Of a stretch of DNA of 64,000 nucleotides, positions 4,650-62,932 are shown piece by piece. The notes under the pieces are model-generated. The model worked only from the letters and a program-made list of their open reading frames with translations, searched no databases and had not been told where the DNA came from. How positions within the stretch are numbered: the first letter of the stretch is position 1; each line of letters begins with the position of its first letter. Position numbers and translations under genes: made by a program. The stretch spans positions 4,771,613-4,835,612 of the forward strand of contig CM018603.1 in assembly GCA_009192285.1 (NCBI GenBank), given 5' to 3'. Source of the stretch: Morchella semilibera. Taxonomy: Eukaryota; Ascomycota; Pezizomycetes; Pezizales; Morchellaceae.

Positions 4650-5972
4650 TATTAGGGTGTCGCACCAGACCACTAGAGTGTACTTTGAAGAGCTCAGGTC
4701 GGAAACAAACTGCAAAGGTAGAGAGAACGGGGTCACTTCAGTCTAAACGTAACTAGAATCTCGTTGTCCGATGCTAGTCCGACGAGTATAGAAAGTTGTT
4801 TGGATCGGAGTGATGCTAACACGAGATTGGTTCAGGTAGATATTTTCAAGAATCACTAAGAGTGTATAGAATAGAGGTAATAGATTTATATCGTTAAGAC
4901 TCTTTCTTCATCGATAATGATTTAACAAAGTCGGAGAATGACACTGTATTTATATCCCGCGCAAATGTCACGCGGACTAAAAACTATCATTACAACAAAT
5001 ATGTGGGAGACCCAGAAGACCCTGATAACGCCAAAAAAACCAAACACCAACGCCAACGTTCCCAACGCCTTTTAAATCCCTCATGTTACATCATGCTACT
5101 GCATGTACCCAGTTTTTCGTCAGCGGGGAAGTGCCGGGTTCAGCCTACCTGATAACTCGTTAGTACCGGGCCTCGACTTCAACTCGCCAACTCTTTTCCT
5201 GCCTTGTTATCTATCACTAATGAGGCAACTTGGACTAACAGATGTATGAGATGATGTCGGGTAGTCTTACCTTTCACCAGCATCAGCTTTCTCGAAACCT
5301 TCGCCGTTTGATCAGTTCTGATCCGATTGATCCCAAACTTGAACTGCTGCCCCCCTATATACCCATCGGTGTCCTGAGCAGCTGTGCCGGCGCTTTGATA
5401 CTCTGGGGGTTATTTTCAGGGTCGAAAACGTGTTTTTTAACTAGTGATTCCGCAACTCCGCAATCTGGCCCATACTGGCACCACTGTATATCTCTGGGTT
5501 TCATGGATACGTTAGGATCGGAAGATTGGAAGGATTGGCAGGGTTGGGATTATTGTAAGCTAGGAGGCGGGGTTGAGTAAGAATAGGTTCTATAGGTTTC
5601 TGTTACGCGAGAATGTGAGTCATGGGTGGGGTTACGCGAGGATATGAGTCAGGCTTGGCTCTGGAATAACGGGTATATAAGGGAGGCAACAGCGCCTACT
5701 CCTGTACTTTCTTTCTTTTCCTTTTCTCTTCACGCAACGTCTTCTGTAACTAGTACTCAATATACTTTATAGTCTCTATACCCTTAGGGACTATCGCTGT
5801 TCGTTATATACTTTCTCTCTTATACTTCCCCTACTTGGGTCGTATCGCTGCAATCCTCTCGTGCCCTGTGGAACGAAGCTACACCATCTCCTCCTTGAGA
5901 CTGGGGCGCCAATTGGGAGTTTAGTAGCATAGGAAGGCTTTGCTGGTCTTCCTGTCTCCAAATTCCATAACA
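4650..5972 (-). mobile_element. Solo LTR, family B (B1), containing LTR H
   Basis: Reads TATTAGGGTGTCGCACC...CCATAACA on the + strand. The TATA-like GGTATATA lies on the minus strand, so transcription is presumably leftward. Flanks are GTTAG (4645-4649) and GTCAG (5973-5977), a 5-bp TSD with one transition. It is longer than the other B copies because a 402-bp LTR (5499-5900) is inserted near its right end. Confidence 0.8.
5499..5900 (+). mobile_element. Solo LTR, family H
   Basis: 402-bp insertion inside LTR B1, flanked by CTGGG at 5494-5498 and 5901-5905. It begins TTTCATGG and ends CTTGAGA, an imperfect inverted terminus. It has GGGTATATAAGGGAGGC near 5670 followed by a CT-rich leader, so it looks like a promoter-bearing LTR of the F type. 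Single copy in this window. Confidence 0.75.
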
Positions 5973-11119: not shown

Positions 11120-12065
11120 TGTTACGGGTTTTGGAAAATGGAGACAGGAAGAACAGCAAGAAAGGGAAAATCTCCCTATGCTACTAAACTCCCAATGGGC
11201 GTACTAGAGAGGCACAGTGGTGCGAGTATGGGGCGGATTGCGGAGTTGCAGAATCACTAGTGAAAGCACATTTCTTCGAACCTAAAATTAATCCCCAAAA
11301 CATTAAAGCACCGGCATAGGTGCTCGTGACACCAGTGGGTATATAAGGGGGTAGCAGTTCAAGTTTGGAACCGATCAGACCAAAACTGATCGAATGGCGA
11401 AGGTTTCGAGAAAGATAATGCTGGTGACTCCTCAGGGGAAGGTAAGACTACTAGTACCTGACACCTCCAGTACCCAATCGTTGACAATCCTAATGTTGAG
11501 CCATGCTCGTTAGTGATAGATGACAATGCGGGGAAAGAGTTGGCGAAAGAAGTCGAGGCCCGGTACCAAAGTGTTGTCAGGTAGGCTGACACTTTCCCGC
11601 TGACAAAAACTGAGTGTATGCAGTAGCGCGATGTAACATAAGGAATTTAAAAGGCGTTGTAAATGTTGGCGTTGGTGTTTGGTTTCCTTAGCGTTATCAA
11701 GGTCTTCTGGTCTCCCAAATATTTGTTGTAATGATAGTTCTTAGTCCGCGTGACATTTGCGTGAGATATAAATATAGTGTCATTCTCCGACTTTGTTCCA
11801 ATCATCATCGATGAAGAAAGAGTCTTGACGATATATAAATCTATTATCTCTATTCTATACGCTCTTAGTGATTCTTGAAAATATCTACCTGAACCAATCT
11901 TTGTGTTAGCATTACTCAACTCCAAGACTTTTACACTCATTGGACTAGCATTGGACAACAGAGGTTCTTGTTACGTTTAGACTGAAGTGACCCCTCGTCA
12001 GTTAGCGTTTCGGACTCTGAGCTCTTTGCAATACTACTCCAGTAGTCTGGTGCAACACCCTAATA
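11120..12065 (+). mobile_element. Solo LTR, family B (B2)
   Basis: 946-bp unit TGTTACGGG...CACCCTAATA with perfect TSD CCCAG at 11115-11119 and 12066-12070. It has the TATA-like GGGTATATAAGGGGG near 11338 in its + orientation. It lies inside the first bases of LTR A2, so B2 is younger than A2. Confidence 0.9.
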
Positions 12066-15330: not shown

Positions 15331-17032
15331 ATGCCGAGAGAAGACAGAATTGAAGGACAGAGTCGCCTGACTGATTTTGAAAAGAGCCAAATCATTGCTC
15401 TCCAGCAGGAGTTTGGCAATGTAGCCAGAATCCTCCCTCGCTTGACATACCTCTGCTCAGATAGTACTGTCAGCAATTCTGTCCAGCGTTACCAAACTGT
15501 CCCGGCGCCTTGGCATCTATCCCGACGGCCCGGTAGGTGATGCATGGTTATGATGGTTGTGGTAATGTTAAGCGAGAAGCGGGGAACGCGAGTGGGAGGT
15601 TGTCGTCATTAGGTTCTAGGAGGTTCGATGGCGTGATGGATTGGTAATGTAGAATAGCGGAGATGGTGGGGAGGATTCTGAGGTGTGAGAGCGACGGGTT
15701 TCTATGGGGTTCTATGAGCGAAAGTGTGAGTTATAGTGGATCAGTGGAGGAGGTGTGTTAAATAGCGGGGATAGATGTTTTCCTTAGTTCTTTCTTTCTT
15801 TTCTCTCTGTCTCGTCTTCCTGTTATCTCGGTACATAGGAATCTACTCCTATTTCTAAAGCCATAGCCTCTCGTACCAAAGACTCGATCCTCTGACAAGG
15901 GGAAGCTCATAGTATCTCTCATCGTTCTCGTTGAGGTCCATTCGGTCCTCACCCTCCCTGCTCTGTGCTCCTGTGCCCTCGCTCTTGCCTTTGTCTTCGC
16001 CGGTGCTTGTGCTTGTGCCTGCCCGGTGTTGTCCCTGTCTTCATCGGCCCCCTCGTCGAGTACACTGTGCTCCTCGAGTCCCTCTGCGTCATCATTGTCA
16101 TCTTCTTCTTTGCGTCGGGTTACTCCGTCACACAAACCTGCAACTCTACCAAAAATTCAGCTACCTCTGGGAGACCCTTTAAGATAGATTTCAAAACCCG
16201 AAATCACATCTAAACTGATGCAAAAGCAAATAGAACAAAGTCTTTTCGCCAATTACGAGACAATCTAGCATCCGAGGTCTCGATTAGGACTGTAAAATGT
16301 TCTCTCAAAAAGATGGGCATTTGCGAATGAAAAGCCGCAGGCAGACCACTTCTAAAGCTCGAACATGCTACTAAAAGGCTTGCTTGGGCCCTTGCACACA
16401 GGCATTGGACAATGGCGGACTGGGGAAGCGTCAGCTGGAGCGATGAATGTTCAGTGGAAATGTGCAGACATGCCCGTCATATATGGGTCTCTCGTTCTTG
16501 GTGGGGAGAGTGGGAATAAATGTATCAATCCTATACAAAGAAGTGGGGTGGTAGAACTGATGGTGTGGGGGTGCTCTTGGAGGAGAAATCACAGCATCTT
16601 TGTCCCTATCATCATAAAATCCATGGATCAGTTTATCCATACCTGCCTAGAAACCTGCATGAAACCTGTCTATGATAGAGTAGAGAAAATCCCTACTAAG
16701 CAACCTAACCTTCATGCAGAATAATGCAGTAGTAGTACACACAAGATAATCTCCTATGATTTGGTTAATAGCAGATCATATCATACTGGAAAATTGCCAT
16801 TCTTATTCCTCTGATATAAAACCTAGCGAGCATTTCCGGAAATACTTCAATGTTCAGCTTCACACATCATACCCAAAACCTTGCAAACACCAGAGGAAGA
16901 CCAGAAGTAGTTAAAGCAAGACTTGCTTAAGTTCCTCCATGTGTATGGGAGGAAATAGAACAGGATATTCTGAAAAACCTGACAAAATCAATGGTGGGCC
17001 ATATAAAGGCTTTTGTGGGGGCAGGGGGATAG
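15331..17032 (+). pseudogene. Tc1-like transposase relic 2, split by LTR A4
   Basis: Starts MPREDRIEGQSRLTDFEKSQ with a helix-turn-helix (STVSNSVQRYQ) up to 15497. LTR A4 intervenes, and coding resumes at 16138 with a SGRPFKID linker, KCSLKKMGI, WSDECSVEM near 16437 (first Asp), FMQNNAVVVHT near 16715 (Asp replaced by Asn in this reading) and SSDIKPSEHF near 16815 (Glu region). Stops and frameshifts throughout. The 3' end is cut by the Helitron at 17033, and TACAAAGTATCAGA after 23032 resembles the Tc1 relic 3 tail (TACACAAAGTATTAGA). The inferred target is therefore this element. Confidence 0.7.
15498..16132 (+). mobile_element. Solo LTR, family A (A4)
   Basis: 635-bp unit TGTCCCGGCGCC...TCCGTCACA with perfect TSD CAAAC at 15493-15497 and 16133-16137. 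It has a TTAAATAGCGGGG box near 15760 and a CT-rich leader. It carries the longest version of the shared antisense frame (15758-16135, minus strand). It splits Tc1 relic 2. Confidence 0.92.
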
Positions 17033-17077
17033 TCTACTATGTACTAGATTACATCCATTTGCGCGCGCGCTTGGCAG

Positions 17078-17136
17078 GTTACCCGGCTTGATTACCCGGC
17101 TTGATTACCCGGCTTAGTGGAGGGTTACCCGGCTTG
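17078..17136. repeat. Tandem TTACCCGGCTTGA repeat
   Basis: Four close copies of GGTTACCCGGCTTG / ATTACCCGGCTTG in the Helitron 5' region, just inside the presumed left end and next to a GCGCGCGCGC run. GC content is high compared with the rest of the Helitron. Confidence 0.7.
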
Positions 17137-17149
17137 CGCGCCCTCCAGG

Positions 17150-17320
17150 TGTGGTGTCGCTTGGGTGCGCAACCTGCGGAGTTGCGGTTCCCCACCAAAA
17201 AAGACCCGTTTTCGACCCTCAAAATAACCCCAGGTGCGTCAAAGCGCCGGTACCCCCGCTCATGACACCGGTGGGTATATGAGAGCTGGGTGTTGAGCTC
17301 TCCATGAAAAAATACCTTTT
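17150..17320 (+). promoter_or_regulatory. LTR-B-like promoter segment in the Helitron 5' region
   Basis: This stretch resembles the promoter part of family B LTRs. It shares CTGCGGAGTTGCGG, GTTTTCGACCCT, AAATAACCCC, CAAAGCGCCGG and GACACCGGTGGGTATAT with B2 and B5 in the same order and spacing. The TATATGAG box at 17275-17282 corresponds to the TATATAAG of the LTRs and points toward the Helitron gene, whose first ATG is about 340 bp downstream. A promoter function is inferred from position and similarity only. Confidence 0.55.
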
Positions 17321-17618
17321 TTGAAAAAAAACTTTTTGATCCTCTACTATTGACTGCTACCAATACTGTTGATTCCTACCATACTATTGACTCCTACCAA
17401 TTTGGGAATACTTCTTGATATTTTGACCATCTACTGATTACCGCACACTACTCGCACCTAGCTCTCAAAACACTTACTACACACAAAATCTGTATGTTAT
17501 ATGATTCCTTGATATGGGATAAGTCGGGAATAGGGAACTGATTATAGGGAGAATTGTAGATTCCGAATAGGTTAACGGTTTTTGAAGCTACTATACATAT
17601 TCAAATTCCTTATCCAAT

Positions 17619-20600
17619 ATGTCTACCAGAAGATGTACAAAATGCAGAAGGGAAAAATCCTTGGGGGATTTTAACGTAGACAATGAAGGACGGCCAAGAA
17701 GGCAGTGCCGTAAATGTTTAGTAAGTATTAATTGAGCGAAATAATAGTATTTATACTGATGATAATAAATAGAGTAGAGATACTATCAGAAGACAACGGC
17801 GGAATCAATTACGGAACGCGGAAGAAAATTATCTGATGAATGTAAGCAAATATTCAAAATATATTAGACTTTTTGATTCTAAAAGATACTATAGATAAAC
17901 ACAATCCCTCAGGGACCTCCAACGTTGCCTTTAGCATTTTTGTCCTCACGGCAACGGTGGAAAACCTTAGAGCTTGGGGGAATGACAATAATTTGCAGTG
18001 ACTGCAATGCTGCACATTGGATAATTGAACGAGTTCATGGTAGTCTTTAGCCATCCCACGTTTTGAAAGCTGTTGCAAAAAAGGGGATGTCGTTTTGCCT
18101 GATTTACGCCCGACGCCTGAGTATTTGCAGTATTTGTTGGAATCATTAGATACTGTTGCAAGAGAGTTCAGGAATAAAATAAGAGAGTACAACTCAGCGT
18201 TAGCATTCACTTCGGTGAAATATAATGCTGACAACAGACTGGCTGAAAGAGTAAGAGCGGGTGTTACATGTTTTCAAATACATGGAGAACTTTATCATTT
18301 ACAGGGCCCACTAGATCCCGCTCCCGCTGCAGTACCAACTTTTGCGCAACTTTATTTCTATGATCCACGGTATGCTGCTAAGGCACGTCAAGAACGACAT
18401 CCTACCTTGAACGTTACTATTTTGGAACGTCTAACAAATGAGTTAAACAATGTAAATCATTTTGTTGGGGTTTATAAAACAGCAAAAGAACGTTTAGCCT
18501 CTGCGTCTTCTGAGGATGGGAATGCACGAGTACTACTGAATCCTCAGCTACAATTGATTATGGAGAGTGGGGCAGACCGACGCCGTGAGAATTTGCCTAC
18601 AAGCAATGAAGTAGCGGTTATACTTCCAGATGAATACGGTCAAGCAGGTTTCCGAGACATAGTACTTGCATACCGAAACCCTACGGAGAACAATCTGTTC
18701 AGTGTTATAAATCCAAATGCCGTTGCATTACGTTTTGTTATTCCCCTGTGGTGACTTGGGTTACCATTGGAGCCTTGAGCTACGAAATGAAAGAGGCACA
18801 CGGAAAAATCTTCGAATAAGCCAACGCGCTTTTTATAGGTAAATTTGACTCTTCGATAAAAATATATAATGAATTAATACTCACATACATTAGATACCGG
18901 TTACATGAGCGGGGAACAGAGCCAAAAACATTGTTCTTAGGGCAAAGGCTGTTACAGCAATATTTGGTAAATGCGTGGGCTGTCTGTGATCAGAATAAAT
19001 TAAACTGGATCCGTTTGAACCAAAATCAGCTCCATTCAGATTTGTACAATGGGCTTGCAGATGCGTTGATTCAACAAGACTTTAATCTTGAAGAGACGGG
19101 GCGAAGAATTATTCTACCAAGCAGCTATACCGGTGGTGACCGTATATGCAACAGCTATTTCAAGACTCTATGGCGATTGTTCATCATTTTGGCCGGCCCA
19201 CGCTCTTTATCACTTTTACTGCAAATCCCAAGTGGACAGAGATTGTAGCGGAGTTGAAACCAGGTCAAACGGCTGTGGATAGCCTTGATTTGGTAGCAAG
19301 GGTATTCCATATGAAACAACAGGAGGTTCTCAAGGAGTTAAAGCACAAGAATGTATTTGGTAGATATTTAGGCTGTGTTTGGACTATTGAGTATCAAAAA
19401 CGTGGCCTGCCGCACATGCATTTGCTCTTATTCCTGCATCCAGATGATAGATTTATAGACGCCGACCGCATTGATCAAATAGTCTGTGCAGAATTCCCTG
19501 ATCCAGCAACAGATCCACATGGGGAGCTTGAAGCAATTATCAAAAGCTGTATGGTTCACGGGCCTTGCGGGAACGCTAATCCGAATTCACCATGTATGAC
19601 AGCAACCTCTCCTGCAGGTACTAAAACCTGTTCCAAAAGGTACCCGAAAGCCTTCCAGTCTGAAACGGTGGTTCAAGAAGATGGTTACCCACTATACCGA
19701 AGGAGAAACAACGGGAGGATTCACACAGTACCCTTACAAGGTTCAGCAACAGGACAAGCAACTTTTGATCTTGACAACCGATGGGTAGTACCTTATAACC
19801 CATATCTGTCCTGGCGATACAAAGCACATATAAATGTGGAGGTTTGCGCCTCAGTGCAAGCTATAAAATATATACACAAATATATATATAAAGGATCTGA
19901 CCGGACAACTCTGCAAGTTGGTGGGGAACTGGATGAAGTGCAGCGGTATCTCCAAGGCCGATATATTGGACTGACTGAAGCCGTTTGGAGACTGTTTGAA
20001 TACGCTATGCATGAGGAACAACCATCTGTTACTCATCTGGCTATTCACTTACCAGGAGAGCAACCAATCATTTATAATGCTAATGCTACTCATGAGGAAC
20101 TGTTGCAACTGATGGATAGAACACGTTCAACACTGATGGCTCATTTTCAGTATAATGCTGAAAATGAAGATGGTAGACAATATCTCTATCACGAGTTCCC
20201 CGCTCATTTTACTTATAATGGCCAGTCGAGAAGATGGTGCAGGCGTAAGCAAGGAACTGCTATTGGTCGTATTTATCACTGTAATCCTATGATGGGGGAA
20301 AAATATTATCTACGTTTGTTACTGACGGTAATACGGGGTGCCAAATCTTTCGAACATCTGAGAACAATCAATAACGTTCCTCAACCAACTTTCAAAGCTG
20401 CCTGTATTGCTCTCGGTTTATTGGATGATGATCAGGAGTGGATACAATGCTTCAATGAGGCAGTTATATTCTCAAGCGGGTCCTCACTACGTACACTCTT
20501 TTCAACGGCAATTCTTTTTGGAGATGTAACCGATCCTACTGCTGTATGGAATCAATTTGCGCCAAATATATGTGATGATCTACCAAATACGTTACAGAAC

Positions 20601-22204
20601 AACCCTTTTCTCAATGTTCCAGCTGATTTCCCGGAACCCCATCTTGACTACGGGTTGTACCTTATTGCTCGCATGCTTGCAGATTCTAACAAGAATCTTT
20701 CCGACTTTGGGCTACCGGAGTATACATTTGATTGAAATCGATCTGCTGGGAATGAAATGATTGCTGCAGAGCTAAATTACGACTGGGGTATGGAGGAAAC
20801 ACTACAAGCTGAACGGGTGCTACAACTAAATGATGATCAACTGGAATGTTTCAATAAAATCGTTGAGACAGTTAGCAACACAGGATCTGAGCAATTTTTT
20901 CTGCAAGGACCAGCAGGGACAGGAAAGACGTTTTTGTATAAAGCGTTGTGTAATCACTTCCGTTCTCAAGAAAAGATTGTTCTCTGTGTTGGCTCCTCTG
21001 GAATTGCTGCACAGCTCCTCCCAGGTGGCCGCACATCGCACTCTCGGTTCAAAATTCCAATTAATATAAATGAAACATCGGTATGCAATATTAGTCGGAA
21101 TAGTATGTTAGCCGGCCTGCTTAAGCAGACTGCACTCATAATTTGGGATGAGGTACCGATGCAGCATAAGTACTGCTTCGAGGCAGTTAATAGAACACTT
21201 AATGATGTTTGTGGTTCCGGAGATGATGCACTATTTGGTGGTATCCCAATCATTCTTGGTAGTGATTTTGCACAGATTCTTCCAGTAGTTCCAAGAGGTA
21301 ACCGTGGGTCAACAGTTGAGGCATGTTTTCAGCGGTCGATTCTGTGGCCACGCTTTGAACTGCTTCGTCTACGGATCAATATGAGAGTGCGTAGTGGTAG
21401 AGAAAATAATGAGTTCGGAAGTTGGCTTGGTCTCATGTCCCATGAACATCTGTGGCAAGGGGTTATAAATCTTCCCCCATTCATTCAGCGGTGTACTACG
21501 GTCTTAGATCTCTGTCACCATGTTTTTCCCCCTGACTTAGTTAGAGGTGCAGGTATAAACCATGAGGCATTTTAGGGAGAGCAATCCTTGCGATGCGTAA
21601 TGATACTGTTACAGAGTTTAATGATATAGTTCTTGGGCAGTTACCAGGCGAAGTACATAATTACTATGCGGTTGATGCTGTTAGTCTTGATAATTCTGAA
21701 GAAGAAGCCAATGCGTTGCCTGTTGAATATCTCCAGAGCTTGAATCCTGCCTCAATACCACCCTCCAACCTTAAGTTAAAAATAGGAGCTCCAGTGATCC
21801 TTCTGAGAAATCTTTATCCAAAACAAGGTTTATGTAACAGAACGCGAATGACTATCACCCGACTCGAGCAGCGGTGTATTGAGGCTAGGATCTTAGGCGG
21901 AGATTTTGATGGGCATGTTAAGGTTATTCCAAGAATAAAGCTATCAACTAACAAAAAGGAACTGTCATTCATCATAACAAGGAGGCAATTTCCTATTCGA
22001 TTGTGCTTTGCTATGTCGGCAAACAAGTCACAAGGGCAGTCATTGGATGTTGTAGGAGTGGATTTGCGGTCCGCACCATTTTCTCATGGGCAATTGTATG
22101 TGGCGTTATCAAGGGTTACCAATATCGGAGGGTTAAGAGTACTGCAAACGGAGGAACGGGAGTCACAGACTGAAAATGTGGTATATCCAGAAGTATTGTT
22201 ATAA
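17619..22204 (+). pseudogene. Helitron Rep/PIF1-helicase (RepHel), disrupted
   Basis: Rolling-circle replication initiator fused to a 5'-3' helicase. The first exon starts MSTRRCTKCRREKS and ends QCRKCL (a CxxC...CxxC zinc ribbon), with an intron at 17721-17772. Helitron-like N-terminal sequence follows (FESCCKKGDVVLPDL near 18060; about 18095-18838), with an intron at about 18839-18891. The HUH motif GLPHMHLLLF is near 19404, the two-tyrosine motif KYIHKYIYKG near 19865, Walker A GPAGTGKT at 20907-20930, Walker B IIWDEVPM near 21140, and the helicase end YVALSRVTNIG near 22095. Damage is light: frameshifts near 18745 and 19140, and a stop plus frameshift at 21573. The catalytic motifs are intact, so inactivation looks recent. 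Confidence 0.88.
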
Positions 22205-23003
22205 ATTATTGTTGTTTTCTTATATTTGTATGCGTTGTATTTTCTTTTATTTCACTTGGGTTTTATATTATTTGGTTGTAGTATTGGTAGAGTTCTATTA
22301 TCACGCTACTCAAAGGTGGTAAGTAATGTTATTGCTTTTCAGCTTCGCTTTATACTAACAATTCTAGATTATTTGCGGTGGAATATGATTGGTAGTGAAT
22401 GTTATTGGGGCGGAATCGTGGTGCAGGATGGTAGGTGAATTCGTATTGCGATTAACTATTTACTAACAAATTTACAGGATCTCGACATTGGTTGTACTTG
22501 GTAGAATAGGTATTGGAGGTAGCCGATGGATTTCTGGAAAACGGTATGTATCAAGCTTAAGTATTATTATTCGGTGTTACTAATATAAATATAGTGGACG
22601 GACAGCCTCTGTTTGACACAGTTTGTATTGAAGGTAGTTGAAGGTTTTTGTAGAATACGGTATGTATCTATTTCCAGTATTTTATTAACTATTACTAACA
22701 CAACCATAGGTAATGCGTATACTTTATGGAATTGGTGTAGGCCAAATATATTTTACTGACTAACAAAGAGTAAGTGAATTCCCCCCTTACTCTACCCTCC
22801 GAAACGATATGACTAACTACAGAATAGATCGCCTGGATAATTTTCAAAGATTGGATTGGATGGTAGAACAGGGTAGTATTGTTAACTTTGTATTTTTTTT
22901 TTCAGCATTTTTTTTCTATCTAATTTCTGTATTCTGTATATTGTATGATTTAAGAATAAATCCTTACCCAAATATATGTACTCACTATAACTTGCATTCG
23001 CAA
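22205..23003 (+). other. Helitron 3' non-coding region
   Basis: AT-rich sequence between the helicase stop and the terminal hairpin. No captured gene is recognised. A short motif around GGTATGTATC recurs near 22530 and 22660. Confidence 0.5.
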
Positions 23004-23032
23004 CTCGCGGTCGCGAGGTGGCCAACCCCTAG
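23004..23032 (+). terminator. Helitron 3' terminal hairpin and CTAG end
   Basis: Perfect 6-bp stem CTCGCG/CGCGAG with a 2-base loop, then GTGGCCAACCC and CTAG. This is the transposition termination structure expected 10-12 bases before a Helitron CTRR end. Confidence 0.85.
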
Positions 23033-25345: not shown

Positions 25346-26226
25346 CAGTGAAAATAGTTAGACAAATGTACATATTAAATCGAGAAATAATCCAGAGTTT
25401 TATTTGTGAAATTCATCTATGCTAGAAGGAGTGTGAGTACTGGCCTACCTGCGCATCCAGATCTTTCAGTGAATAAAATCAATTTTATATCGGCATTATC
25501 ATATATCATAATCTTCACTAAATATCAGCTTTAGCGAAACCATAGGCTAATTAAGTCCTGATCTAAAATATCAGGCATCAAATCATAAAAGCTTGATATT
25601 GGACTGAGATCAGCTTCAAATCACACTGATATTTTTATACGGTCCGCGGTAAAGTAGCATCATATATGCCATTTCTTCCAACGCTACTAGAATGCTATAT
25701 TAATATCGATGTGTGTTTTACAGTCAATATTTTCATGTATCCGTATAAAGATTTCTTTAAAGGATCAGATTGAACATTGTTTTCGTTTGGTGTAAAGGGA
25801 TAAGAAGAGGTTGACAAAATCACTGCTCATATCAATGCAAGATATTTCTCTGCCTGCAACGCAGCATGGAGAATCCTACAATACCACTTCACAGATCGAT
25901 TACCTGCAGTCAAGTCACTTACAGTTCACCTTCCTGAGAGAAATATGCATCTGATGTATCGAAAAAATGGTGTAGAGTCTACAGCAACAACTTTAGTAAG
26001 ATATTTCTCTAGACTTCAAGATGCAATGTATCAAGATTCAAAATATATTCAATACTACGAAAAATGGATCCTCTATTCAAGGTCGTCAATCATCCTCAAG
26101 GATACCCACTTTCTTGAAGAAATTAGCTAAAGTGATCCATAGGTAATTGTCAGAGTTAGGACCAGGAATAAAGCGATAGCCCAAATCAATACAGTAACCT
26201 TAAGAACTGGAGAAGTATTCTACAGC

Positions 26227-31651: not shown

Positions 31652-32659
31652 TATTAGGGTGTCACACCAAGCAACCCGAGTAGTCAAGTAAAGAGCTTAG
31701 AGTTTGAAACGCTAACCGCAAAGGCAGTAAGGAACAAGGTCTCCTCAGTCTTAACCAGCCTAGAGTCTCGATCACTCGATGCTAGTCCTTTCAGTAAGCA
31801 ATGGTCTTCAAATACGAAGATGGTTCGAGGTGGAGTTTCCAAGTCACTTGAAAGGTTTTCGAAGATAAAGCGTAAAGTAATAGTAATTATATCGATAAGA
31901 CTCTTTCTTCGTCGCTGATGATTTCAACAAAGTAGGAGAATGACACAGTATTTATATCCCGCGCAAATGTCACGCGGACTAAACATTATAACTACAAACA
32001 TCCAGTGCGAAACCCCGAAGACCCTGAAAATACGCCAAGACAACCAAACGCCAAATCTATCCCACCATCTAAAATATCCCTGATCTCTAATCCCAGAAAA
32101 TCCCTCACGCTCTATTCCCTTAATAGATAACAACCCGTCGCTGCATGCACTCAGCCTTCAACAGTGATCATGAGGAGTCTTCGAAGCTAGCCTACCTGAT
32201 AACATCCCGGTACCGTGCTCGACTCCGCTCGCCAACTCTTTCCCGACATCGTTACCTATCACCAAGGAGCATGGCTCAACATTAGGACTGCTAACGATCG
32301 GTACCGGAGGAGTCGGGTAGTCTTACCTTCCCCTGAGGCGCCACCAGTGTGAGCTTCCTTACGACCTTCGCCATTCGATCAAATATGGTCCGATTGACTC
32401 CAAACTCGCACTGTTGCCTCCTCATATACCCACCGGTGTCCTGAGCGACTGAGCCGGCGCTTTGACGCTCCGGGGGTTATTTCAGGGGTCGAAAACAGGT
32501 TCGTTAACTAGGGATTCTGCAACTCCGCACTGGGCTTCATACTGGCAACACCGTGCCTCTTTGGCGCGCCCAGTGGGACATAGAGGCTTTTAGCAGCGTA
32601 GTAGCGTGGGAGGGTCCTCCTCTTTCAGTCTTCGGGTTCCCTTTCTTATGCCTGTAACA
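31652..32659 (-). mobile_element. Solo LTR, family B (B3)
   Basis: 1008-bp unit TATTAGGGTGTCAC...CCTGTAACA with perfect TSD GTAGC at 31647-31651 and 32660-32664. The TATA-like box on the minus strand is degraded to TATATGAGG near 32417. Slightly longer and more diverged than B2, B4 and B5. Confidence 0.9.
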
Positions 32660-56673: not shown

Positions 56674-58710
56674 ATGTCTACCAATTCTACCACTGGCAAT
56701 CCACTTCCAGTTGAGATGGAAGTCAGTGCGCCCGCTCAGGCCGCAACTACTCTAAGAACCCTTGTCGCCACCATGACGACTTCTGACCATGTCGCGACGA
56801 CTATTGCTATCAGCAGCAACACCCAGGCGACCAGTCAAGCTTCCCCTATTTCCTTGCTAGAGGAGACAGCCGCTCCCATCCCTCAAGCCACACCTGCCCT
56901 TCCAGCTGCAACACAAATCCTTGAAGTCGCACCAGTCCTTCAAAAGAGGAAGAGAGTTACTAGGGGGCTATTAGGGTGTCGCACCGGACTACTAGAGTAG
57001 TACCATGAAGAGCTCAGAGTCCGAAACGCTAACTGCAAAGGCAGAAAGAAATGGGGTCACTTCAGTCTAAACGTAACTAGAATCTCCGCTGTCTGAAGCT
57101 AGTTCGACGAGTATAGAAAGTTGTTTAGATTGGGGTAATGCTAACATGAAGAATGGTTCAGGTAGATATTCTCAAGGATCACTAAGAGCGTATAGAGGTA
57201 ATAGATTTATATCGTTAAGACTCTTTCTTCGTCGATGATGATTTCGGTGAAGTCGGAGAATGACACTGTATTTATATCCCACGCAAATGTCACAAGGACT
57301 AAGAACTATCATTACAACAAATATATGGGAGACCCAGAAGACCCTGATAACGCCAAGAAAAACCAAACACCAATGCCAACATTCCCAAAGCCTTTTTAGA
57401 TCCCTCATGTTACATCGCGGTACTGTATGCACTCAGTTTTTCGTCAGCGGGGAAGTGCCGGGGTCAGCCTACCTGATAACTCCTTAGTACTGGGCCTCGA
57501 CTTCGCTCACCAACTCTTTCCCCTGCATTGTTATCTATCACTAAGGAGCATGGCTCAACATTAGGACTGTTAACACTTAGGCACCGGAGGTGTTGGGTAG
57601 TCTTACCTTTCCTTGAGAAGTCACCAGCGTCAGCTTTCTCAAAACCTTCGCCGTTTGATTAGTTTTGATCCGATTGATCCCAAACTTGAACTGCTGCCCC
57701 CTCATATACCCACTCGTGTCCTGAGCGGCTGTGCCGGCACCTCAATACTCGGGGGTTTTTTCCGGGTTTGAAAACTTGTTTTTTAACTAGTGATTCCGCA
57801 ACTCCGCAATCTGGCCCATACTGGCACCACTATACCTCTCTAGGGCGCCAATTGGGAGTTTAGTAGCATAGGGAGGCTTTTGCTGGTCTTCCTGTCTCCA
57901 AATCCCGTAACAAGAGCATAGCCCTGTCAGAAAGAGTCCCACTATTACAAGCATTCAATTAGATCTTTTACTAATATCAATAGTAGTTCCTAGGGAGGTT
58001 GACATTGATGGTCAGATCTATAGGGTTCCCCCTAATCATTTTACTATTGAAAGCTTCCATATTGCCCATAACATGGTACTTAAGAGTCTAAGAGCAGTAG
58101 CCTCTAATGGGCGTAAGGCTAGTCCTTATGACTTGGTCTTAGCTTGGGGCCCTATGGTCGCTCTTCTTACTCCCACTGTTTGTCCTGATCTGACCAACTT
58201 TGCTCCCGATTGTGATTCGGACGAATCGGTAATCACTTGTCCTCGCAAGCGTCACAGTCGTAGCATTAGTTCCGCTGCTTCCTCTTTGATCATTACTGAA
58301 CGATTGCCTCCGAATTCTCTGAACCGATCGTTGTCGAACCGATCGTTACTCAATCGATTGTTAAGAAGGGAGGATTAACTATAAGGAAAATGCTGAGATT
58401 GGAGATTTCACAGATTTGGATGCTGCAATGGCTGAGATTAAGCATTGCAAGTAGTGGGTTGAAGGAAAGTATATTATGGGCAAGCTTTCCTTTAATGGTC
58501 AGACTGGTGATAATGAACTGATCGATCCAACTTATGATGGGTGTGTTAATTCCCAGGGAAAGTATAAGACCGAATGTCGCAGGTTGGTTGATGGATCTGA
58601 TGAAAATGTTACTTCCGATCACTACGCTGCATGCGTTCAGCGTAGTCGTCCTTGTAGTTTGCTCAATCGTGGGGACCGATATATCCAATCAATTCAATTA
58701 AATAGTTTGT
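56674..58710 (+). pseudogene. Unrecognised ORF (gag-like?), split by LTR B4
   Basis: Starts MSTNSTTGNPLPVEMEVSAP with a Thr/Ala/Pro-rich low-complexity region, ending PVLQKRKRVTRG where LTR B4 is inserted. After B4: VDIDGQIYRVPPNHFTIESF near 57995, RAVASNGRKASPYDLVLAWG near 58095, RKRHSRSISSAASSLI, then after a stop FTDLDAAMAEIKHCK and KTECRRLVDGSDENVTSDHY near 58570. A promoter-like duplicated unit lies upstream and Ty3/gypsy pol relic 4 lies tail-to-tail downstream. It could be the first ORF of a retroelement, but no zinc knuckle or capsid motif is seen. Confidence 0.4.
56969..57912 (-). mobile_element. Solo LTR, family B (B4)
   Basis: 944-bp unit TATTAGGGTGTCGC...CCCGTAACA. Flanks GGGGC and AGAGC agree at three of five bases, with two G-to-A type differences, so the TSD is only suggestive. 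Interrupts the ORF at 56674-58710. Confidence 0.88.
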
Positions 58711-61986: not shown

Positions 61987-62932
61987 TATTACGGTGTCAC
62001 ACCAGACTGCTAGAGTAGTATTGTAAAAAGCTCAGAGTCCGAAACGCCAACTGCAAATGCAGAAAGGAACGGGGTCACTTCAGTCTAAACGTAACTAGAA
62101 TCTCCGTTATCCGATGTTAGTCCAACGAATATAAAAAACCTTTCATAGTTGGGTGATGCTAATACGAAAATTGGTTCAGGTATATATTTTCAAAAATCAC
62201 CAAGACTGTATAGAATAGAGGTAATTGATTTATATTGTTAAGACTCTTTCTTCGTCAATGATGATTTCAACAAAGTTGGAGAATGACACCGTATTTATAT
62301 CCCGCGCAAATGTCACGCGGACTAAGAACTATCATTACAACAAATATGTGGGAGACCGGAAGACCATAATAAGGAAACCAAACACCAACGCCAACATTTA
62401 CAACGCCTTTTAAATCTCTCATGTTACGTCGCGCTACTGCATACACTCAGTTTTCGTCAGCGGGAAAGTGTTGGAGTCAGGCTACCTGATAACACTTTGG
62501 TACCTAGCCTCTACTTCATTCGCCAACTCTTTCCCTGCATCGGCATCTATCACTAAGGAGCATAGCTCAATATTAGGATTGTCAACGATTGAGTACCGGA
62601 GGTGTCGGATAGTATTACCTTTCCCTGAGAAGTGACCACCGTCAGCTTTCTCAAAACCTTCACTGTTTGATCAGTTTTGGTCCGATTGATTCCAAACTTG
62701 AACTACTGCCCCCTTATATACCCACCGGTGTCATGGGTGGCTGTGTCGGCGCTTTGTCGCTCCGGGGGTTATTTCTGGGGTCAAAAAACGTGGTTTTTAA
62801 CTAGTGATTCCACAACTCCGCGATCTGGCCCATACTGGCACCACTGTACCTCTCTGGGGTGCCAGTTGGGAGTTTAGTAGCATAGGAAGGCTTTGCTGGT
62901 TTTCCTGTCGCCATTTTCCAAAACCCGTAACA
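61987..62932 (-). mobile_element. Solo LTR, family B (B5)
   Basis: 946-bp unit TATTACGGTGTCAC...CCCGTAACA with perfect TSD GCATG at 61982-61986 and 62933-62937. The TATA-like CTTATATACCC near 62715 is the reverse of the B2 box. Interrupts the RNase H of Ty3/gypsy relic 4. Confidence 0.93.

Follow-up and report, generated by a model that had tools for sequence, protein, structure and literature searches.

A promoter-like module common to a Rep-bearing Helitron and to LTRs of Morchella semilibera

The capture of host promoters by Helitrons is already known. The bat element HelibatN3 captured the NUBPL promoter (PMC4778049), and in Aspergillus nidulans the xanA promoter is included in a Helitron (Cultrone 2007, as cited in PMC5148889). 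In Pleurotus, one copy of HELPO1.2 had its helicase ORF disrupted by an LTR/Gypsy insertion (PMC4289320), and the Helitrons of Fusarium have multiple 5' termini and non-canonical ends (PMC5148889). No Helitron with an LTR or retrotransposon promoter was found in the open-licence PMC literature, as judged by titles and the beginnings of abstracts.

The stretch of Morchella semilibera DNA analysed here (64,000 nucleotides, referred to as the window) contains a Helitron, HEL1, whose region upstream of the gene includes a block of 109 bp (the module) in common with LTRs of the same window. The features of the window are collected in Table 1. The genome assembly that was scanned for related sequences comprises 56.8 Mb in 23 contigs.

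Table 1. Positions of HEL1, its module and the module-bearing LTR copies in the window
Feature	Position	Strand	Basis or remark
HEL1, Rep-bearing Helitron	17033..23032	+	6000 bp; recurring termini, Rep and helicase domains
HEL1 5' terminus TCTACTATGTACTAGATTA	17033..17051	+	genome pattern matches
Promoter-like module common to HEL1 and family-B LTRs	17175..17283	+	homology, 109 bp
Module core, 47 bp	17198..17244	+	sole segment retained by the additional upstream modules of L010, L011 and L012
TATA-like box GTGGGTATATGAG closing the module	17271..17283	+	sequence; in the main module of 10/10 copies
Leader inverted repeat, 5' arm	17281..17295	+	10/10 copies, 7/10 scoring at least 12.5
Leader inverted repeat, 3' arm	17452..17466	+	pairing with the 5' arm
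Presumed HEL1 start codon (MSTRRCTKCRREK...)	17619..17621	+	335 bp 3' of the module
Rep (Helitron_like_N) ORF	19146..20735	+	Pfam PF14214, 5.9e-36
PIF1 helicase ORF	20757..21575	+	Pfam PF05970, 8.5e-72
Helicase C-terminal ORF (Pif1_2B)	21593..22204	+	Pfam PF21530, 1.6e-16
HEL1 3' hairpin CTCGCGGTCGCGAG and terminal CTAG	23004..23032	+	sequence, recurrence in copies
Module in interrupted LTR-A copy (4650-5498 and 5901-5972)	5357..5462	-	blastn, flank class
Module in LTR-A copy 11120-12065	11239..11347	+	blastn, flank class
Module in LTR-B copy 31652-32659	32421..32529	-	blastn, flank class
Module in LTR-A copy 56969-57912	57701..57808	-	blastn, flank class
Module in LTR-A copy 61987-62924	62713..62820	-	blastn, flank class; upper edge approximate

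HEL1 and its copies in the genome

HEL1 has the canonical domain set of a Helitron, Rep together with a PIF1-type helicase (Pfam PF14214, PF05970 and PF21530); the identification was made by profile, and the PF14214 match corresponds to the C-terminal half of that profile. Its ends are of the canonical Helitron1 type, with a 5' TC (TCTACTATG...) and a 3' CTCGCGGTCGCGAG...CTAG with a subterminal hairpin, and both the 5' TCTACTATGTACTAG and the 3' hairpin with CCCCTAG are also found at the boundaries of other copies. The 5' terminus gave 81 matches in the genome at no more than one mismatch versus none in the reversed control. A protein search with the Rep ORF returned 35 matches, with ten elements at 77-100 % amino-acid identity, namely the window copy and L009-L017. 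Over a 900-bp part of Rep the HEL1 copies are 90-98 % identical to the window copy.

The reading frame of the window copy is interrupted by the stop that ends the ORF at 20735 and by a frame change before 21593. Stops within the Rep match were likewise found in L009, L010, L011 and L016, and an open frame of 1114-1128 aa runs through Rep in four other copies. A C..C-type start resembling that of the window copy is present in eight of the nine other copies; L009 has ATA for ATG, L012 has a stop as the second codon, and the motif identified no start codon in L011. The canonical Helitron target lies between A and T and is not duplicated. Inspection of flanks by eye, carried out for the window copy, L012 and L013, revealed no target duplication in these three copies; the 3' flank begins with t in all of them and the 5' flank ends with g, g and a, respectively.

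Several unusual arrangements of Helitron sequences were observed. L010 and L017 each have two 5' ends ahead of one body, and head-to-tail Helitrons occur in which a CTAG end is followed directly by the next TCTACTATG start (L010 at 3642 and 9752, L014 at 3175 and 4050). A tandem array at C2:1973783-1974038 contains eight Helitron 5' termini, seven of them at 25-bp spacing. Downstream of HEL1, a second and distant Helitron Rep match (28 % aa) lies at 25654-26061 with no module match nearby. Eight copies (L009, L010 and L012-L017) were compared with the window copy. Over the initial ~450 bp of the gene (17619 to about 18070) seven of the eight were 53-85 % identical to it, and over the sequence that follows 81-100 %; L009 demonstrated the opposite pattern, with a good match at the start and a poor one after about 18220 in that alignment. 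The Helitron copies are mosaics, with N-terminal exons and 5' ends apparently swapped.

The module in HEL1 and in LTRs

A first-pass annotation of the window had described about 150 bp in the 5' region of HEL1 as collinear with family-B LTRs. The homology was confirmed but the length was not, since the common segment amounts to 109 bp (17175-17283); the four sequence blocks quoted in that description were all found, in LTR order, at 17174-17280. The module begins 142 bp inside HEL1, between the 5' end and the gene. In a blastn comparison of 17001-17620 with the window, the two best LTR copies matched at 80 % over 107-110 columns (E 3e-21 and 1e-20) and the other three at 81 % over 75 columns, 72 % over 110 and 71 % over 73. 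The last of these is the copy at 11220-11360, where a match had been predicted and was indeed obtained, but it is the weakest one, with 66 % identity over the whole module.

Shuffled sequence had been proposed as the yardstick for this alignment, and the real alignment stands far above it. None of 500 dinucleotide shuffles of 17150-17320 reached the real score with any of the five window LTRs (real scores 35-62, best shuffle 16), and a chance match of the HEL1 and LTR modules was thereby ruled out. The alignment is collinear over the 109 bp with one or two gaps, and identity extends to the positions between the blocks. Convergent gain of the same transcription-factor sites, to which the identical order of the blocks would be suited if one set of host factors were involved, is an extremely improbable explanation for 109 collinear bp that are about 80 % identical even between the blocks, with no shuffle (0/500) coming close.

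The proposal that the Helitron has no LTR ends of its own was upheld, as the part of the LTR that matches it is limited to positions 104-212 (group A) or 131-239 (group B). In the Helitron the shared block ends at the TATA-like box, which points towards the ATG at a measured distance of 335 bp (about 340 bp had been predicted). A check for HEL1 copies devoid of the segment had also been suggested: all ten elements with a Rep match of at least 77 % carry the module ahead of the gene, in the same orientation, facing the coding start and ending in TATAT. Insertion of an LTR in a single copy was ruled out, as the module is present in 10/10 Rep-bearing copies and the window copy is without LTR ends. 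An extra partial module is situated upstream in six of the ten copies.

The mean identity among the ten HEL1 copies, with gaps counted, is 0.863 for the module, 0.259 for the upstream DNA (from the 5' end to the module) and 0.381 for the leader, the last value being based on nine copies, as L011 had no start recognisable by the motif. The module at 86 %, set against flanks at 26 % and 38 %, is therefore a conserved island amid flank turnover.

The leader itself contains an inverted repeat. The sequence GAGAGCTGGGTGT, just 3' of the TATA-like box, pairs in all ten copies with a ACACCCAGCTCTC-like sequence 105-202 bp downstream. The scores are 11-14.5, and 0.4 % of the control arms reach 12.5 (95th percentile 11.5, maximum 13.0); the score of L011 (11.0) falls within the control range. 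Two-sided changes in the repeat were noted in L010 and L013. It is a possible RNA stem ahead of a GTATGT that resembles an intron start.

The LTRs and LTR-like stretches carrying the module were assigned to groups A, B and C by best flank match. The LTRs are about 947 bp long in group A and about 1018 bp in group B; in both groups they start with TGTTACGGG, or nearly so, and finish with CACCCTAATA, and A and B align over 399 bp at 81 % and over 414 bp at 71 %. The 5-bp target duplication was perfect in nine of the 14 LTR copies examined, matched at 4/5 positions in three and was missing from two; for L021 7115-8120, one of the 4/5 cases, none was expected because gag follows. On C1, two stretches of group B separated by 6.6 kb share 99.3 % identity over 430 bp. 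The first is followed by a gag-like ORF (Ty3_capsid match 8.2e-05, below the Pfam cut-off) and next by an open stretch of 832 aa. Inspection by eye, as opposed to a family search, identified protease, RT, RNaseH and the beginning of integrase in this open stretch. A purine-rich tract precedes the second stretch, and the same was found for the group A copy L018, which is without duplication. With its paired LTRs and a gag-like ORF followed by protease, RT, RNaseH and integrase in this order, this one group B element is by its sequence features a Ty3/Gypsy retrotransposon. Judging from the identities of the Rep part and of the two LTR stretches, HEL1 and its LTR partners look recent enough for direct tests.

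Group C, which has in common with A and B the module and about 45 bp downstream of it (a flank match of 42-53 bp), appears LTR-like; no gag or pol was recognisable by eye in 3 kb of its interior. Between the LTRs of the L029 pair no retrotransposon gene was recognised, in L030 pol runs against two unlike LTRs, and no confirmation was obtained for a candidate tRNA in L116. In the window, the segment 11347-11590 of an LTR-A copy, 3' of the module, lies within the most strongly conserved block of groups A and B and could encode a short spliced frame (ATGGCGAAGG..., then GGTAAG).

Distribution and origin of the module

Two pattern searches with module blocks gave 119 matches each in the genome versus 1 and 0 in the reversed controls. 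The sites that were read come from the 100 listed of the 119 matches per pattern, which merged into 132 sites. The contigs C9/C10, C12/C13 and C21/C22 look like near-identical pairs with matches at slightly shifted positions, and part of the assembly therefore probably represents two haplotypes. Allelic sites (contigs C10, C13 and C22) were set aside, together with those within the window. Of the remaining 113, 78 were read individually, 33 fell within loci already included and two were left out (C12:1048442, allelic to L028, and C5:1003352, placed in LTR-A by neighbouring sequence in L025). The stretches classified among the matches listed, which include the window modules and both members of an allelic pair, L026 and L030, number 119: 16 in ten Helitrons, 54 in LTR-A, 40 in LTR-B and nine in group C.

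Among these 119 stretches, read from the matches listed, no module was found outside HEL1, LTR groups A and B and the LTR-like group C, and the idea of a host-gene promoter family, considered for the module, was rejected for lack of a copy outside transposons. An independent origin in both element types, each having taken the module from a host promoter that subsequently diverged or disappeared, is unlikely. It would agree with the halt of the shared block at the TATA-like box in the Helitron, as expected of a functional unit, but no host promoter carrying the module is among those stretches, and the identity between elements, up to 0.88, is high for two captures from a lost source.

Of the 81 Helitron 5' ends, 12 have a listed module within 1.5 kb, and the identical 12 have a Rep match of at least 70 % within 4 kb. 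They represent nine elements, since L010 and L017 contribute two ends each and one is the end of an 874-bp element ahead of L014. The 5' end of L009, the tenth element, is more diverged and not among the 81. From the other 69, a sample of 20 gene-less 5' ends was read (seven with a 3' end nearby and 13 on the plus strand; the 3' end lay within the stretch in 10/20), and the module was absent from all 20, the best match being 12 bp long (E 0.50). The coincidence at 12/81 and the absence from all 20 others read lead to the conclusion that the module accompanies the gene. A function of the module as a transposition end was ruled out by the same 20 ends.

In a distant relative of HEL1 (70 % aa, contig C14), the 2.8 kb read in the region of the gene's 5' portion contained no module, the best chance match having E 0.49. 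This relative is one decayed copy, with one TGA and one TAA in the Rep match, and so the absence of the module there could be due to loss. Further Rep fragments (53-60 %) lie on C14 near 571.5-572.4 kb.

A module tree was obtained from 101 different full-length modules over 109 columns; it is unrooted, with an unsettled bootstrap and 57 of the 98 inner branches open. A single branch sets the Helitron modules apart (94/88), and the same holds for those of B (99/96) and C (96/97); all three groups join among LTR-A rows; the fork joining the Helitron group to nine LTR-A rows has a support of 37/85. The first to branch within the Helitron group is the module of L016, whose identity is 0.881 at best and 0.832 on average with LTR-A, and 0.853 at best and 0.833 on average with the other Helitrons. 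It looks like an intermediate between LTR-A and Helitron modules.

Taken together, the tree, the closeness of L016 to LTR-A and the module-less relative on C14 make a single acquisition by HEL1, with an LTR-A-like source, more likely than two separate inheritances. The opposite direction, from Helitron to retrotransposon, would be permitted by an unrooted tree and is quite unlikely: the LTR groups share more around the module (about 45 bp with C, and the 399-bp block between A and B) than the Helitron, with just 109 bp; the B, C and HEL groups all branch off among LTR-A rows; and the 70 % relative of HEL1 is without the module in the stretch read. The first-pass annotation had offered two readings, capture of a promoter or common descent of a promoter module in a Helitron and a retroelement. 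The identities of both elements are now supported and the tree leans to a single acquisition, with a promoter role as the presumed function of the module.

Possible role of the module and comparison with described systems

The simplest reading of the module is that of a promoter: it ends in TATAT, faces the gene in 10/10 copies, is tied to the gene and has its core repeated upstream in six copies. A second TATA-like box, TATAAATA, is found in the LTRs at position 635 (A) or 706 (B), and therefore the module may be an upstream or alternative LTR promoter, not the main one. This second box would also fit a shared cis element with another role, such as a silencing target, a chromatin boundary or a replication or integration signal. 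Such a role is decidedly unlikely, since among Helitrons the module was found only in those with the gene, is missing from the 20 gene-less 5' ends read, and keeps the same orientation, ahead of the coding start and with the TATAT end, in 10/10 copies.

The explanation that we consider probable, though by no means secure, is that the Helitron acquired an LTR promoter module once and that selection has maintained it as the transposase promoter, where both the activity and the direction of transfer are deduced from the sequences. The 109-bp module would then be a Pol II promoter block, with upstream activator sites and the TATA box at its end. The HEL1 ancestor would have gained it, most likely once, from the U3 of a group A type Ty3/Gypsy LTR, either by a template switch in rolling-circle transposition or through the decay of an inserted LTR. 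HEL1 would now transcribe its Rep/helicase gene from the module, which selection would retain while the DNA on either side is quickly replaced; the extra partial copies upstream may act as added activator sites. A point against this explanation is that several of the Helitrons with the module, including that of the window, have interrupted frames.

A broader proposal is rather doubtful and is put forward tentatively. The module could be a transposon-restricted promoter cassette transferred between class I and class II elements. Gypsy and Helitron elements would then answer to one host activator as one transposon regulon, and in HEL1 the module could be the anchor about which recombination swaps 5' ends and N-terminal exons. 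A transposase promoter derived from a retrotransposon would, if true, go beyond the known capture of host promoters in showing that regulatory parts cross between transposon classes and that joint activation of unrelated transposons within a genome may occur.

Each of the known systems resembles HEL1 in one respect and differs in another. The Fusarium Helitrons (PMC5148889) also have several 5' ends before one body, as in L010 and L017, but their termini are non-canonical, whereas HEL1 has TC...CTAG ends. In Pleurotus HELPO1.2 (PMC4289320), as in HEL1, Helitron and Gypsy sequences are present in one element; there a single copy was disrupted, whereas in HEL1 109 bp without LTR ends are found in 10/10 copies. 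In A. nidulans (Cultrone 2007, as cited in PMC5148889) a fungal Helitron and promoter DNA likewise coincide, but the promoter in the Helitron is that of a host gene, xanA, and in HEL1 a putative promoter of retrotransposon type is situated upstream of the Helitron gene. Bat HelibatN3 (PMC4778049) is similar in that a rolling-circle element acquires and spreads a foreign promoter; its source was a host gene and it drives host transcripts, whereas the source in HEL1 was apparently a transposon and the module lies ahead of the element's own Rep gene.
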